From: a virus | DNA length: 25,527 nt | Virus record (IMG/VR): IMGVR_UViG_3300025699_000049 | Span: 1 to 25,527 of that record | Direction: 5' to 3' (one strand) | Shown: piece after piece, positions 4,268-11,791 of the stretch | Layout: each line of letters starts with the position of its first letter | Position numbering within the stretch: position 1 is the first letter of the stretch | The notes under the pieces: generated by a model | The model's database searches: none | What the model was told of the DNA's origin: nothing | Seen by the model: only the letters and a program-made list of their open reading frames with translations | Program-made: the position numbers and the translations under genes

Positions 4268-5194
4268 ATGAAGAAGTTCTTAGACAAAGCAGCACACGCT
4301 TATTTCGAAGGTAATCCTATCATCAGTGACGGTGAGTGGGACTTCTTGTCTCGTGTTTTTAACTATGATGATGTTGGTTATACTCCTACAGATGGCGTTC
4401 GTCATTTGTTCCAGATGTATTCTTTGCAGAAATGTTTCGATATATTGAACCCGCCCTTTCATGTACTAGGTAAAGACGTTGTGGCTTCTCCTAAGCTTGA
4501 CGGTGCTGCTGTGTCTCTAGTTTACATTAACGGAGAGTTTACTCAAGCTCTTACGCGTGGCGATGGTATCTTTGGTAGAGATGTTACAGATAAAATGGCT
4601 CTGCGAGTACCTGCACAAATACCAGAAAGTGGCGTAGTACAGATCACTGGCGAGCTAGTAGCTCCTGATAATATTGAAAACTCTCGTAACTACGCTGCGG
4701 GGTCACTGAACCTCAAGTGTACCAAAGAGTTTGATAGCAGGGCTACTTACTTTTACGCCTACGGGCTGCAGTGTGATAACGGTTTATCAACCTGGACAGA
4801 AGATATGGATCGGTTAGCCCTTCAAGGCTTCAACACTGTACATACTCATATGACGGCAGGCTTTCCGCAAGATGGTATTGTCTACCGTATCAATGATAAC
4901 TATGACTTTAGTGCTATGGGATATACTTCTAAGCATCCTCGTGGAGCGTTTGCTCTCAAGGAAGAGCAGGTAGGTGTAGTTACAAAACTATTAGATGTTG
5001 TCTGGCAAGTAGGTAAGTCAGGTATTATTAGTCCAGTTGCAATACTAGAGCCAGTATTGGTAGGAGATGCTACTGTATCGAGAGCCACTCTTCACAATAT
5101 AGATTACATCAGAGAGTTAGACTTAGAGATTGGATGTGACGTAGAAATTATTCGCTCAGGGGAGATCATCCCCAGAGTCGTCAGACGCGTATGA
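4268..5194 (+). CDS. ligA: NAD+-dependent DNA ligase, part A (adenylation and OB domains)
   Basis: 308 residues from ATG 4268, with AGAGGC just upstream. This is the N-terminal half of a bacterial-type NAD+ ligase. ISDGEWD (19-25) fits the NMN-binding Ia domain, which is shortened; HLFQMYSLQKCF follows; SPKLDG (74-79) holds the nucleophile Lys76; then TRGDGIFGRDVT, GELVAP, SRNYAAGSLNLKC and DGIVYRIN of the nucleotidyltransferase domain; and QVGKSGIISPVA, TVSRATLHN and RSGEIIPRVV of the OB fold. It stops exactly where a whole ligase would continue into the zinc finger. Part B at 5268 supplies the rest, so the two probably form one enzyme that seals nicks during phage replication. T5-like phages are known to have two ligase subunit genes. 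Confidence 0.93.
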   Translation: MKKFLDKAAHAYFEGNPIISDGEWDFLSRVFNYDDVGYTPTDGVRHLFQMYSLQKCFDILNPPFHVLGKDVVASPKLDGAAVSLVYINGEFTQALTRGDGIFGRDVTDKMALRVPAQIPESGVVQITGELVAPDNIENSRNYAAGSLNLKCTKEFDSRATYFYAYGLQCDNGLSTWTEDMDRLALQGFNTVHTHMTAGFPQDGIVYRINDNYDFSAMGYTSKHPRGAFALKEEQVGVVTKLLDVVWQVGKSGIISPVAILEPVLVGDATVSRATLHNIDYIRELDLEIGCDVEIIRSGEIIPRVVRRV

Positions 5195-5212
5195 CACACA
5201 AAAAAATAACTC

Positions 5213-5241
5213 TTGACTTTACCTTAAACTTACGATATAAT
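5213..5241 (+). promoter_or_regulatory. Promoter P3 (sigma-70 type) between the two ligase genes
   Basis: -35 TTGACT at 5213-5218 and -10 TATAAT at 5236-5241, spacing 17, followed by ATCTTTTCAAAATT as at P1. Expected start near 5248, about 20 bases before the ligase part B ATG. Confidence 0.9.
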
Positions 5242-5267
5242 ATCTTTTCAAAATTAAGGAATCATAT

Positions 5268-6017
5268 ATGACATACATTGAACCACCGACAAGCTGCCCT
5301 TCGTGTAGCTCGCTGATCGTAGTCATAAATAATCTTTTGTTTTGCAAAAACACATCCTGCGGTACAAAACTTCACAAAAAGCTAGAACACTTTGCAAAGA
5401 CCCTCAAGATCAAAGGGCTTGGACCAAAAGCTATCGAGAAATTAGGGGTCACAACTTCACAAGAGTTGTACTTGCTGACTAAAGATGACTTGGTGTCTCT
5501 CCTAGAATCTGAGAAGATTGGTGCAAAGCTTTTCGCTGAGTTACAAGTATCTAAGAATGTGCCTATGAATGTAGTTATTCCTGCACTTAGTATTCCCTTG
5601 ATCGGCAACACAGCAGCTAAAAAATTAGCAACTGTGTGCGATACAATACACGATATTAATGCAGATACCTGTGAGTCGGCAGGCTTAGGCCCAAAGGCAA
5701 CAGATAACTTACTTTCATACCTGAGTGAGAATGGCATTGCGCTACTAGATCATCCGTTCTCTTTCAAGTTCGAGAAACCACAAGTCGTACTAGCCCAGAA
5801 AGGCGTAGTATGTATCTCAGGCAAGTTAAAATCTTATAAAACAAAAGCTGAAGCCTCAGAGATACTACAACAGAACGGTTACGCGATTAAGGCTTCTTTG
5901 ACAAGAGACGTTACCATTCTAGTTAATGAGAGTGGTATAGAGTCTCAAAAAACACAAAAAGCCAGAGACGCTGGCGTACAAATTATAACTAACCTACAAC
6001 AATTCTTGGAGAATTAA
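5268..6017 (+). CDS. ligB: NAD+-dependent DNA ligase, part B (zinc finger, HhH, BRCT)
   Basis: 249 residues from ATG 5268 (TAAGGA upstream). It begins with a four-Cys zinc finger, Cys10, Cys13, Cys26 and Cys31, followed by LKIKGLGPKAIEKLG and further helix-hairpin-helix units (IPLIGNTAAKKLA, AGLGPKATDNLL), then a C-terminal BRCT-like domain (GVVCISGKL to the end, with VTILVNE and KTQKARDAGVQII). These are the domains that follow the OB fold in one-piece NAD+ ligases, in the usual order. It has no nucleotidyltransferase motif and cannot ligate alone; pairing with part A is inferred. Together they give 557 residues, shorter than the roughly 670 of E. coli LigA. It has its own promoter, P3, and is followed three bases later by the repeat DNA-binding gene. 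Confidence 0.92.
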   Translation: MTYIEPPTSCPSCSSLIVVINNLLFCKNTSCGTKLHKKLEHFAKTLKIKGLGPKAIEKLGVTTSQELYLLTKDDLVSLLESEKIGAKLFAELQVSKNVPMNVVIPALSIPLIGNTAAKKLATVCDTIHDINADTCESAGLGPKATDNLLSYLSENGIALLDHPFSFKFEKPQVVLAQKGVVCISGKLKSYKTKAEASEILQQNGYAIKASLTRDVTILVNESGIESQKTQKARDAGVQIITNLQQFLEN

Positions 6018-8709: not shown

Positions 8710-9537
8710 ATGAATGTTCAGGATTTACTAGAAAGCAAGAAAGTAGAGTATGTATATAAAGGCCAAGACTTCTTGGTCAAGTGTATAAATCCTGAGCATC
8801 CCGATAGAAACCCTAGTATGCGGGTAGATCAGATTACTGGAGTATTCCAATGTTTTAGTTGTGAGTACAAAGGTAATCTATTTACGCATTTTGGGGAAAA
8901 GGCAAATCAACTGCAATTAAAGCGTGAACTCTTAAAGAAGCGTATAAACGAAAAACGCGCTGAGAGCATTGGTTTGTCTTTTCCCAAAAGTGCGGTACCT
9001 TATATTGGAAACTGGAGAGATATAAAACCGGAAACCTACAAACGATTTGAAGCCTTCAACAGTGTAGACAAAGATCACGTTGGTCGAATCGTTTTTCCTG
9101 TACGAGATATGTCAGGCAGAATAGTAGCCTTTAACGGTAGACATACGGCTCAAGGAATTCCGAAATACATGATCACTCCAGCGGGGGCAAGGATGCCATT
9201 ATTTCCTGTAGTAAAACCAATACAAGGTTCAATCATATTAGTAGAAGGTATATACGATATGATTAATTTGCACGATAAAGGTTTAGATAATGCTGTTTGC
9301 TGTTTTGGAACAAAGAATATAAATACAGATAAGCTATCCATGCTAAAAATACAAGGGATAGACAGTGTAGACATTTTCTTTGACGGCGACGATGCCGGAC
9401 AGCAAGCAGCATCTAAAGTTAAAGAAATGTGTGAGCAGGTAGAGTTGGTGTGTAGAAACATTCACTTAAACAATACCGACCCTGGCGCATTAACCGAACA
9501 ACGAGTACGTAAACTAAGAGAAAAATTATATGCCTAA
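8710..9537 (+). CDS. DnaG-like DNA primase (CHC2 zinc finger plus TOPRIM)
   Basis: 275 residues from ATG 8710, one base after the previous gene. Residues Cys25, His30, Cys48 and Cys51 form a CHC2-type zinc finger with PDRNPSMRV between them. The TOPRIM domain follows: IILVEGIYD (175-183, with Glu179) and FFDGDDAGQQAA (223-234, acidic metal cluster). GRIVFPVRD and IVAFNGRH fit the RNA polymerase basic region before TOPRIM. It lacks the helicase-binding C-terminal domain of bacterial DnaG and is about half its length, as is usual for phage primases. It should make RNA primers at the fork with the DnaB-like helicase. The ribosome site is weak, which suggests coupling to the upstream gene. It overlaps the polymerase start by eight bases. 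Confidence 0.9.
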   Translation: MNVQDLLESKKVEYVYKGQDFLVKCINPEHPDRNPSMRVDQITGVFQCFSCEYKGNLFTHFGEKANQLQLKRELLKKRINEKRAESIGLSFPKSAVPYIGNWRDIKPETYKRFEAFNSVDKDHVGRIVFPVRDMSGRIVAFNGRHTAQGIPKYMITPAGARMPLFPVVKPIQGSIILVEGIYDMINLHDKGLDNAVCCFGTKNINTDKLSMLKIQGIDSVDIFFDGDDAGQQAASKVKEMCEQVELVCRNIHLNNTDPGALTEQRVRKLREKLYA

Positions 9538-11791
9538 AGTTGCATTAGTAGAAACTAAACCAAGTAGAACACGCTTCAAACAAGAGTTCGATAACGCCTT
9601 TGAATTCGACCAGTATCAGCTATGCTCAGACCCAACACTAAAGAAAGTCTTAAAGAAGGACTGCGATATTGAGATTGATATCGATGCTTATGACTGGATC
9701 ATTTTAGTCGGATCTGACGCATTAAAGTACTTTACCAAAATTAATTCAGTTACCGAATACTCTGGCAAATGCATAGAGGATAAGTTCTTGCCTGTAATTA
9801 ATCCTGCCATGCTCGCTTTCAAACCAGAAGCTCGTAGCACGTGGGATTCTTCTAGAGATAGTATCATTGCATATATCAACGGAGAAGTACAAGAAGTAGT
9901 AATTGATGAGACTGTAGCTCGCGGTATTCAAGATACGGACGAAGCTAATGATTACTTCCAGAAAGCCATAGACTGGGACTTAGATTACGTAGCACTAGAT
10001 TCCGAGACCACTGGCCTATACCCTAGAGATGGTCATATTCTAGGCTTATCCCTATCTTACCGACCAGATGAAGGTGTATACATAGACACCACTTGCTTAG
10101 ACGAGAAATCTGAGGAGTTGCTGCAGGAGCTATTCACAAAGAAGAGAGTTATCTTTCACAATGCTAAGTTCGATATTGCATTCTTTGAGTACCATTTCAA
10201 TTTCAAGTTCCCACGTTTTGAAGACACAATGCTGTTACACTACATCATTGATGAGAACTCACGTCATGGTCTAAAAGAGCTATCTCTAAAGTACACTAAG
10301 TATGGCGACTATGAGAAGCCAATGTATGACTGGATGGATAACTACAGAAAGCAAACTGGCATATTGAAGAAAGACTTCACTTGGGATTTGATTCCGTTTG
10401 ATACTATGTATACATATGCCTCACTAGATGCTGTATGTACATTCCTTTTATACGAAAAGTTTGTTAAAATACTAGGCAATGTTAAACTCAAGTCTGTATA
10501 CGAGAATATACTTATTCCTGGCTGCCGCTTCTTAACAGATGTACAAGATAATGGTGTGCCGTTTGACCAAGAGCGTCTAGCAGCCTCTCAAGGTATTATG
10601 CAAGTAGACATTGATAAAGCCGTAGCGGGGTTGTACAAAAACCCTAAGATTGCAGAATTCGAGAAAATTCAGGGTAAAGAGTTCAATCCTAACAGTACGA
10701 TGCAATTACGAGCACTTTTATTCGATTTTATCGGTCTACAGCCTACAGGCAAGAAGACCGGCACAGGAGCAAACAGTACCGATGTAGAAGTACTAACTGA
10801 GCTGTCTCAAAAGTCTGAAGTACCTGCACTTATTATTGACATTCGACAGAAAGGTAAGATCAAGAACACGTACCTTGATAAGATCATACCACAGCTTGAC
10901 CGTGATAGTAGATTACGTACTGGATTTAACTTACACACTACAACATCAGGTCGTTTATCTAGTAGTGGTAAACTTAATATGCAGCAGCTGCCTCGTGACA
11001 ACCCTACTGTTAAAGGTTGTATCAAAGCTGCTCCAGGACACCAAATAGTCGCAATGGATTTAACAACAGCAGAAGTGTATGTAGCAGCAGTACTAGCAAA
11101 AGATAAAGCTCTTATGGACGTATTCCGTAGTGGTGGTAACTTTCACTCAACCATTGCACACAAAGTATTTAGATTACCTTGTGCAGTAGATGAAGTAGCA
11201 GATCTATATGGCGATAAACGCCAAGCAGCTAAAGCAGTAACCTTCGGCATTATGTATGGTGCTGGGCCTGCAAAAATCAGTGAACAAGTTACCAAAGATT
11301 CAGGTAAATACTTTAGTAAACAAGAAGCCCAAGAAGTTATTAGCGATTACTTCAATGAGTTTCATCAATTAAAAGCATGGATTGACAATAACGAGGACTT
11401 CATTAAGAAAAATGGGTTTATCTATAGTTATTTCGGTCGCAAACGGAGATTACCAAATGTCGCCTCAACAGATAACAGTATCGCGAGTAGTAGCGTTCGT
11501 TCTGGTCTTAACTTTCTGGTGCAGTCTGCTGCTTCTGATATTAATTTAATGGGCGGTATTGATATGAACGAACATATCAAAGCCAAGAAAATGAAAAGCA
11601 GAATCTTTGCTCTAGTACACGATAGTATTCTAGCAGAGGTTCCAGATGATGAGATAGAGGATTACTGTGAGCAACTTCAAAAATACATTCAACAAGATAG
11701 GGGTATATTTATACCGGGTGCACCTGTGGGCTGTGACTTCGAGATTGGCGGTGATTATTCGATGGGCAAGTATGAAAAGCTATATCTCTGA
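9530..11791 (+). CDS. Family A (Pol I-type) DNA polymerase with 3'-5' exonuclease
   Basis: 753 residues. Exonuclease motifs: ALDSETTGL (155-163; Asp157, Glu159), HNAKFD (210-215) and YASLD (296-300, Exo III). Polymerase motifs: TTTSGRLSS, motif A around Asp510 and Glu515 (MDLTTAEVY), motif B with Arg564, Lys568, Phe572 and Tyr576 (KRQAAKAVTFGIMYG), motif C VHDSILAEV (His697, Asp698). Phe572 is at the position that discriminates ribose/deoxyribose in Pol I. Motif A has TTAEVY in place of the common SQIELR, and motif C has Ser after His-Asp. No 5' nuclease domain is present; that function is a separate gene at 19473. Residues 1-130 are an extra N-terminal module (WIILVGSDALKYF at 56-68, PVINPAM at 88-94) resembling a worn uracil-DNA glycosylase fold. 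This is the replicative polymerase. Confidence 0.95.
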   Translation: MPKVALVETKPSRTRFKQEFDNAFEFDQYQLCSDPTLKKVLKKDCDIEIDIDAYDWIILVGSDALKYFTKINSVTEYSGKCIEDKFLPVINPAMLAFKPEARSTWDSSRDSIIAYINGEVQEVVIDETVARGIQDTDEANDYFQKAIDWDLDYVALDSETTGLYPRDGHILGLSLSYRPDEGVYIDTTCLDEKSEELLQELFTKKRVIFHNAKFDIAFFEYHFNFKFPRFEDTMLLHYIIDENSRHGLKELSLKYTKYGDYEKPMYDWMDNYRKQTGILKKDFTWDLIPFDTMYTYASLDAVCTFLLYEKFVKILGNVKLKSVYENILIPGCRFLTDVQDNGVPFDQERLAASQGIMQVDIDKAVAGLYKNPKIAEFEKIQGKEFNPNSTMQLRALLFDFIGLQPTGKKTGTGANSTDVEVLTELSQKSEVPALIIDIRQKGKIKNTYLDKIIPQLDRDSRLRTGFNLHTTTSGRLSSSGKLNMQQLPRDNPTVKGCIKAAPGHQIVAMDLTTAEVYVAAVLAKDKALMDVFRSGGNFHSTIAHKVFRLPCAVDEVADLYGDKRQAAKAVTFGIMYGAGPAKISEQVTKDSGKYFSKQEAQEVISDYFNEFHQLKAWIDNNEDFIKKNGFIYSYFGRKRRLPNVASTDNSIASSSVRSGLNFLVQSAASDINLMGGIDMNEHIKAKKMKSRIFALVHDSILAEVPDDEIEDYCEQLQKYIQQDRGIFIPGAPVGCDFEIGGDYSMGKYEKLYL

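Follow-up and report, generated by a model that had tools for sequence, protein, structure and literature searches.

The 25,527-base virus record IMGVR_UViG_3300025699_000049 of IMG/VR, which was analyzed over its whole length and is called the window below, encodes a T5-like family A DNA polymerase whose first 118 or so residues are, judged by the predicted structure, a shortened domain of the uracil-DNA glycosylase (UDG) superfamily of the family 4 type, fused N-terminally to this replicative enzyme. The module is probably dead for uracil excision, a lack of activity that we infer from the replaced active-site residues, and was probably retained for another task. It is under purifying selection about as strong as that acting on the catalytic parts of the polymerase. 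With regard to its role, we assign a probability of roughly 50% to the reading that the dead UDG domain serves as a non-enzymatic polymerase part which would hold or steer DNA via the former motif-B loop, with a putative DNA contact and a presumed effect on processivity.

Predicted fold and profile links of the N-terminal module

The AlphaFold2 (AF2) model of the module, computed with 57 sequences, reached a pLDDT of 91.6 and a pTM of 0.85 and contains strands at residues 4–8, 27–30, 56–60 and 86–89 together with helices at residues 61–68 and 99–116. The four-stranded alpha/beta fold of UDGs was thus recovered in the predicted model as well as in comparisons with Foldseek and VIA, for each of which the best 50 rows were considered. 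In the Foldseek search against 350,542 PDB chains (best 50 of 551 rows), ranks 1–10 were family 4 UDGs or UdgX with a probability of 1.00 (top match: E 1.5e-3, TM-score by query 0.64); unrelated folds such as flavoproteins and TIR domains reached a probability of at most 0.54 and were rejected. By VIA, 1ui1 was the best match (Z 12.3, 2.5 Å, 120 residues) and ranks 1–34 were all occupied by family 4 UDGs and UdgX (Z 10.0–12.3). The fold is shared with the family 4 UDG of Thermus thermophilus (1ui0/1ui1) and with UdgX of Mycobacterium smegmatis over 115–121 aligned residues, both of which are, unlike the module, longer stand-alone proteins. An earlier sequence-only reading of this DNA had suspected a worn UDG in front of the exonuclease domain and had proposed fold prediction against UDG structures as a check. 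An unrelated fold or a closer similarity to another known domain was looked for and did not occur, and the UDG-like identity is upheld by the nearest folds.

The next VIA row after these 34 was PDB entry 9qhs, the family A DNA polymerase of phiLo, which matches the module over 124 residues from chain residue 45 (Z 9.4). With a chain of 1122 residues it differs from the 753-residue window polymerase, and it is known here by its entry title and this match; a literature search for 9qhs found no paper. In the search of predicted viral structures, the polymerase of Escherichia phage Gostya9, which we take to be a T5-like phage, ranked first (TM-score by query 0.85), and the rows after it were polymerases and UDGs of phages as well as entries without a name. 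When the whole polymerase model was compared by VIA, matches began at residue 123 or later in all of the best 50 rows.

Several details of the layout given by the sequence-only reading could be refined. Residues 1–130 do precede the exonuclease domain, which begins at residue 132, but the fold ends at about residue 118, so that the end given at 9919 lies about 12 residues too far. The order of WIILVGSDALKYF (residues 56–68) and KFLPVINPAMLAFKP (residues 85–99) was correct, with a gap of 16 residues rather than about 20, and the Trp-containing helix described behind them is found as helix 99–116 with W105.

Profile comparison links the module to the UDG domains of other phage polymerases, while the sequence alone does not lead convincingly to cellular UDGs. 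A profile of 57 modules was aligned by hhalign with ten UDG domains of phage polymerases over residues 47–120, with a probability of 96.3 and an E-value of 1.7e-9 that holds for one comparison. Divided into subgroups, 17 rows near the window gave a probability of 94.4, 8 rows near T5 94.8 and a third group of 16 rows 88.2, and eight control segments of about 130 residues from the same polymerase alignment did not exceed 0.5. The Pfam UDG model in turn scores 133.8 bits in the polymerase of MW202455, 95.8 in that of LysYB2, 82.7 in that of SPO1 and 64.5 in that of Yersinia phage P744, and the UDG domain of the MW202455 polymerase matches the T. thermophilus UDG with an E-value of 9.6e-43. A weak tblastn bridge also connects the window module with the P744 polymerase (33% over residues 39–94, E 0.03). 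The ten fused domains include the eroded one of locus L141 and that of L309, in which the polymerase part is the next open reading frame (ORF).

Other results weigh against a UDG origin. Compared with seven cellular UDG-superfamily proteins, the profile of 57 modules reached a probability of only 36.3 (26.2 near the window, 1.5 near T5 and 4.4 in the third group; controls 0.0–0.9). These seven were picked from 28 UDG places by their score with the phage profile, and they include the degenerate L327 and the second copy of L312, which has Asn for His. Searches of PDB sequences with the module by phmmer and by profile found no UDG. The Pfam UDG model gave 13.1 bits in the window, below its cut-off of 24.3, matched 26 of the 57 modules weakly and well short of that cut-off (best E 0.018), and gave no match in the T5 module. 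A PF03167 search of the window record found nothing. As direct sequence similarity to cellular UDGs is missing, the case rests on the fold and on profile comparison via phage intermediates. A chance resemblance of an unrelated small alpha/beta domain would fit the failure to reach any PDB UDG by sequence and the window's Pfam match under the cut-off, but is hardly credible in view of the fold ranking, the profile comparison with its negative controls and the same pre-exonuclease place in UDG-bearing polymerases.

Active-site positions, selection and relatives

Uracil is bound in UdgX by N91 and H178, with E52 of motif A as the catalytic residue, and motif B of Ung forms the DNA intercalation loop (PMC10359453, available text). 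In the VIA alignments, the first model residue is paired with residue 44 of UdgX and with residue 33 of the T. thermophilus UDG, which, if the first strand is free of gaps, places residue 9 opposite the catalytic Glu. For the T. thermophilus enzyme, this register uses residue numbers that we presume to apply. On this footing, the motif-A acid is replaced by Thr9 in the window, directly behind Glu8, and is absent from all 57 aligned modules (T 21, K 27, S 7, N 1, V 1), and the motif GE(A/G)PG is found as ETKPS. The position of the uracil-binding Asn, assigned by eye, is Cys32 in the window (C 30, S 21, A 4, T 2; Asn in 0 of 57), and the motif-B His is Asn91 (N 50, S 7; His in 0 of 57). This His is absent, with N or S instead, from all 205 T5-like loci and their 126 distinct modules. 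The sequence-only reading had rightly noted Asn-Pro-Ala in place of His-Pro-Ser. The first 130 residues contain no Cys-x2-Cys, the module beginning at motif A; in family 4 UDGs, Cys residues are ligands of the Fe-S cluster. An N-terminal Cys-x2-Cys segment and the GKPFxG loop are present in MW202455 and lacking in the window.

The proteins compared differ clearly from the module in this respect. All three residues (Glu in motif A, the Asn and His in motif B) are present in UdgX and in the intact cellular UDGs. SPO1 gp31 and the polymerases of MW202455, Yersinia phage P744, Lebethron and Serbin carry a UDG domain N-terminal to the exonuclease and family A polymerase domains, and such fused phage UDGs are longer than the window module. 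In the set of ten aligned here, nine retain the His and all ten the motif-A acid, the uracil-binding Asn being found in only three.

The part that once was motif B has become the most conserved stretch of the module. Residues 90–100 carry 3.56 bits per column compared with 2.75 in strands, 2.48 in helices and 2.09–2.64 in other parts; P92, K98, P99 and E100 are invariant in all 57 modules, and motif B now reads (N/S)P(A/S)xLxFKPE in place of HPSxxL. Leu95, which corresponds to the intercalating leucine, is conserved at 87% by weight. L59, G61 and G79 are invariant in 57 of 57 as well. Among 81 relatives, dN/dS was 0.041 in the module, 0.035 in the exonuclease, 0.049 in the thumb region, 0.055 in palm and fingers and 0.122 in the linker, ratios that are rough due to a high mean dS of 0.62–0.97. 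They derive from 212 of 3240 pairs with 0.15 < dS < 1.2, of which 197 were usable for the module, 157 for the linker, 173 for the exonuclease and 212 and 212 for the polymerase parts. A module in ongoing decay is ruled out by its value of 0.041, and the earlier word "worn" does not describe the present state of a domain whose ratio stands beside 0.035–0.055 in the catalytic domains. Since selection on the module is about as strong as on the exonuclease, it must do something.

The module was present in 205 of 213 polymerase loci examined. The remaining eight were dropped because no match began within the first 30 residues: L083, L085, L086, L087, L140 and L141 lie outside the T5-like group, and L126 and L225 are cut at the N terminus. 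The 205 loci, among them that of the window and some contigs retrieved repeatedly, correspond to 173 distinct proteins and 126 distinct modules; clustering at 86% yielded 58, of which 57 were aligned (the window for L001, L088 for L082, L084 left out). In a tblastn search with residues 1–130 (E <= 1), 917 of 50,697 phage records matched, 897 of them over at least 80% of the query, and the module is therefore more than a chance feature. One scan of viral contigs was empty.

The polymerase of T5 (Demerecviridae) carries the same module in the same place (31% identity over residues 3–118, E 6e-11), and the T5 copy in IMG/VR (L088) shows 45% identity to the window over the aligned polymerase. As in the window, primase lies just before the polymerase and a helicase follows soon after. 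In T5, INPAML reads ISPAQL and Thr9 corresponds to Lys; its polymerase also has a C-terminal extension, which is absent from the window. The coding sequence of the T5 polymerase (AY587007.1; L082 3498–3588) is annotated from 71271, whereas the conserved module begins with a TTG codon at 71181 that is preceded by AGGAG. Counted from this TTG, the polymerase comprises 855 residues, and the annotated start cuts off 30 residues including motif A and the first strand.

By its exonuclease-polymerase part, the window polymerase falls into the T5 clade, a monophyletic group of 13 of the 30 tree rows with a support of 100/100. The sequence-only reading had stated that SPO1-type polymerases bear UDG-like domains, which is borne out by the Pfam score given above, and had drawn the likeness to this type; the nearest group, however, is that of the T5-like polymerases according to relatives, tblastn and the tree, in which LysYB2 stands for SPO1. 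The T5-like and SPO1-like domains may or may not go back to one fusion event, as support for the deepest branchings of the tree is weak (55/79).

Possible role of the module

Since the module has apparently lost catalysis but retains the DNA loop, a DNA-holding or DNA-steering role is most likely. The sequence-only reading had also proposed a structural or processivity role. In such a course of events, a UDG domain would have been joined N-terminally to a T5-like polymerase and would have lost the residues that recognize and excise uracil, while the fold and the former intercalation loop would have been kept, the latter rebuilt to its present form. The side of this loop could then hold or steer the DNA on its way into or out of the exonuclease-polymerase core, which may serve processivity, strand displacement or the exchange for proofreading without a separate clamp. 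A precedent for such a role is the vaccinia protein D4, which belongs to another UDG family. Together with A20, D4 is a UDG serving as polymerase processivity factor, the need for its catalysis being disputed among reports; unlike the fused module, it is an active enzyme of its own, which A20 connects to the viral polymerase (PMC10253040, available text).

Several observations speak against DNA holding by a dead module. Its net charge is –3 in the window, with a median of –1 in the 57 modules, compared with 0 to +5 in the fused phage UDGs and +4 to +9 in cellular UDGs, and only loop 31–45 is clearly basic (mean +2.35). As the processivity of D4 depends on basic surface residues (PMC10253040, same text), the acidic module argues against a D4-like way of working. 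The substrate-binding Arg of motif B in UdgX, R184 (PMC10359453, available text), falls by counting on Phe97. An acid, Glu or Asp, is found at position 8 in 53 of the 57 modules and may replace the lost one if the register is off by one. Moreover, strand displacement by T5 polymerase is abolished by removal of its C-terminal extension, as reported in the available part of a citing paper (PMC3303844). Short polymerases like that of the window (11700–11791) lack this extension and must consequently manage without it. In the alignment, the window polymerase ends at residue 753 directly after GGDYSMGKYEKLYL, and the polymerases of L118 and L123 also have early C-terminal ends.

The main rival to DNA holding is a docking role: the module could be a structural brace for the exonuclease or a docking platform for primase, helicase or single-stranded DNA-binding protein (SSB), with the FKPE loop as a protein interface. 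We regard this as a serious if tentative alternative, as the module, in contrast to the fused and cellular UDGs examined, is acidic on balance and its loop is nevertheless strictly conserved; the T5-like replication gene cluster around the polymerase also encodes primase, helicases and an SSB family protein. What a pure brace would not need, however, is the conservation of just that stretch which in Ung is the loop entering DNA (PMC10359453, available text).

Readings that leave the module a function in base recognition fare less well. As a template sensor, it would bind uracil or some modified base in front of the polymerase, leave it uncut and stall synthesis. It shares its fold with uracil binders that flip bases, and a match to the thymidylate synthase family in the window shows that base metabolism matters to the phage, but the pocket is dismantled, with Asn changed to Cys, Ser, Ala or Thr in 57 of 57 modules, the motif-B His gone from all of them and the GKPFxG loop missing, which renders this improbable. 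Still more doubtful is a glycosylase that remains active with another specificity via Glu/Asp8 and Asn91. Asn is found in both motifs of Escherichia coli Mug, and the acid at position 8 and the Asn at position 91 (50 of 57) would suit such an enzyme; on the other hand, with a gap-free strand the VIA start points place residue 9 and not 8 on the catalytic acid of the T. thermophilus UDG and UdgX, position 91 is Ser in 7 of 57 modules, and the pocket loop is missing.

Genomic setting, parallel cases and significance

The features of the polymerase gene are collected in Table 1. Its ORF starts with ATG and shares 8 bases with the end of the primase ORF, and the nearest annotated relatives among phage records are T5-like phage polymerases with about 44% identity over the whole length. 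The window carries a replication gene cluster of the T5 type, comprising a split NAD-dependent ligase, a D5-like regulator, a DnaB-like helicase, primase, polymerase and PhoH, as well as a thymidylate synthase family member, a helicase, SSB, an SbcD/SbcC-like pair, a RusA-like resolvase, a 5′-3′ exonuclease and ribonucleotide reductase. The order of these genes presumably resembles that of T5. The NAD-dependent DNA ligase at 4268–6017 consists of two ORFs, one with the adenylation/OB part and one with the HhH/BRCT part.

Table 1. Features of the polymerase gene in the window (coordinates are those of the window)
Feature	Position	Strand	Basis
N-terminal UDG-fold module (predicted), residues 1–118	9530..9883	+	AF2 model, UDG matches, hhalign
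Former motif A VALVETKPS (for GE(A/G)PG), residues 4–12	9539..9565	+	register inferred from VIA starts
Second strand and conserved basic loop DQYQLCSDPTLKKVLKKDC, residues 27–45	9608..9664	+	alignments
Third strand, helix and glycine turn WIILVGSDALKYFTKINSVTEYSGK, residues 56–80	9695..9769	+	hhalign aligned stretch
Former motif B (DNA intercalation loop) INPAMLAFKPE, residues 90–100	9797..9829	+	conservation
Variable linker, residues 119–150	9884..9979	+	dN/dS 0.122, mean identity 0.586
T5-like family A DNA polymerase gene, 753 aa	9530..11791	+	ORF, Pfam, relatives
3′-5′ exonuclease domain, residues 132–315	9923..10474	+	PF01612 E 2.6e-25
Family A polymerase domain, residues 376–725	10655..11704	+	PF00476 E 6.2e-75

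Similar changes are seen in other phages. Locus L141 (1001–1435) bears an eroded UDG domain without the Cys-x2-Cys and the GKPFxG loop and with SPA for HPA, which still scores 31.9 bits with the Pfam UDG model, and its polymerase groups with those of MW202455 and L140 (support 100/100). In Pseudomonas phage phiK7B1 (L310 1130–4522), a family C polymerase annotated as PolIII alpha has a C-terminal UDG domain (50.4 bits), in which NPA for HPS was recognized by eye. Tentatively, and with considerable doubt, phages could repeatedly have made a polymerase-joined UDG into a dead DNA-holding module, in the T5 lineage before its diversification and in replacement of a separate clamp, the loss of the His in L141 and phiK7B1 being independent.

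UDG-like matches also occur in genes of Rhizobium and other Pseudomonas phages that are annotated as PolIII alpha. Locus L312 contains two adjoining UDG genes, the second of which has NPA in motif B and keeps the motif-A Glu and the Asn. In L302, L303, L306 and L083, a gene annotated as dCMP or cytidine deaminase stands directly before the UDG-bearing polymerase gene, with an overlap in three of the four; thymidylate synthase and dUTPase are annotated nearby in three of these four loci, which hints at uracil or modified-base metabolism.

Fusions of UDG and polymerase are already known, and so is a phage polymerase of solved structure that shows a UDG-like match (9qhs). For the T5-type N-terminus, no statement that it is a reduced UDG was found in the titles and abstract beginnings of the open-licence papers that searches on this subject listed, and a word search of a few phage polymerase papers returned no uracil, glycosylase or UDG. 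The available parts of PMC2147016, PMC3765255, PMC7824862, PMC12230644 and PMC12677585 likewise contain nothing on the module.

The polymerase of T5 is a classic, highly processive enzyme, and an article by Andraos et al. from 2004 is said to call its termini unique in the title. Our analysis gives its N-terminal region a predicted fold and a likely origin and indicates which residues to mutate. In a broader context, it has become testable whether a repair glycosylase may have been domesticated more than once as a part of a polymerase that confers processivity or steers DNA, as in the case of poxvirus D4.

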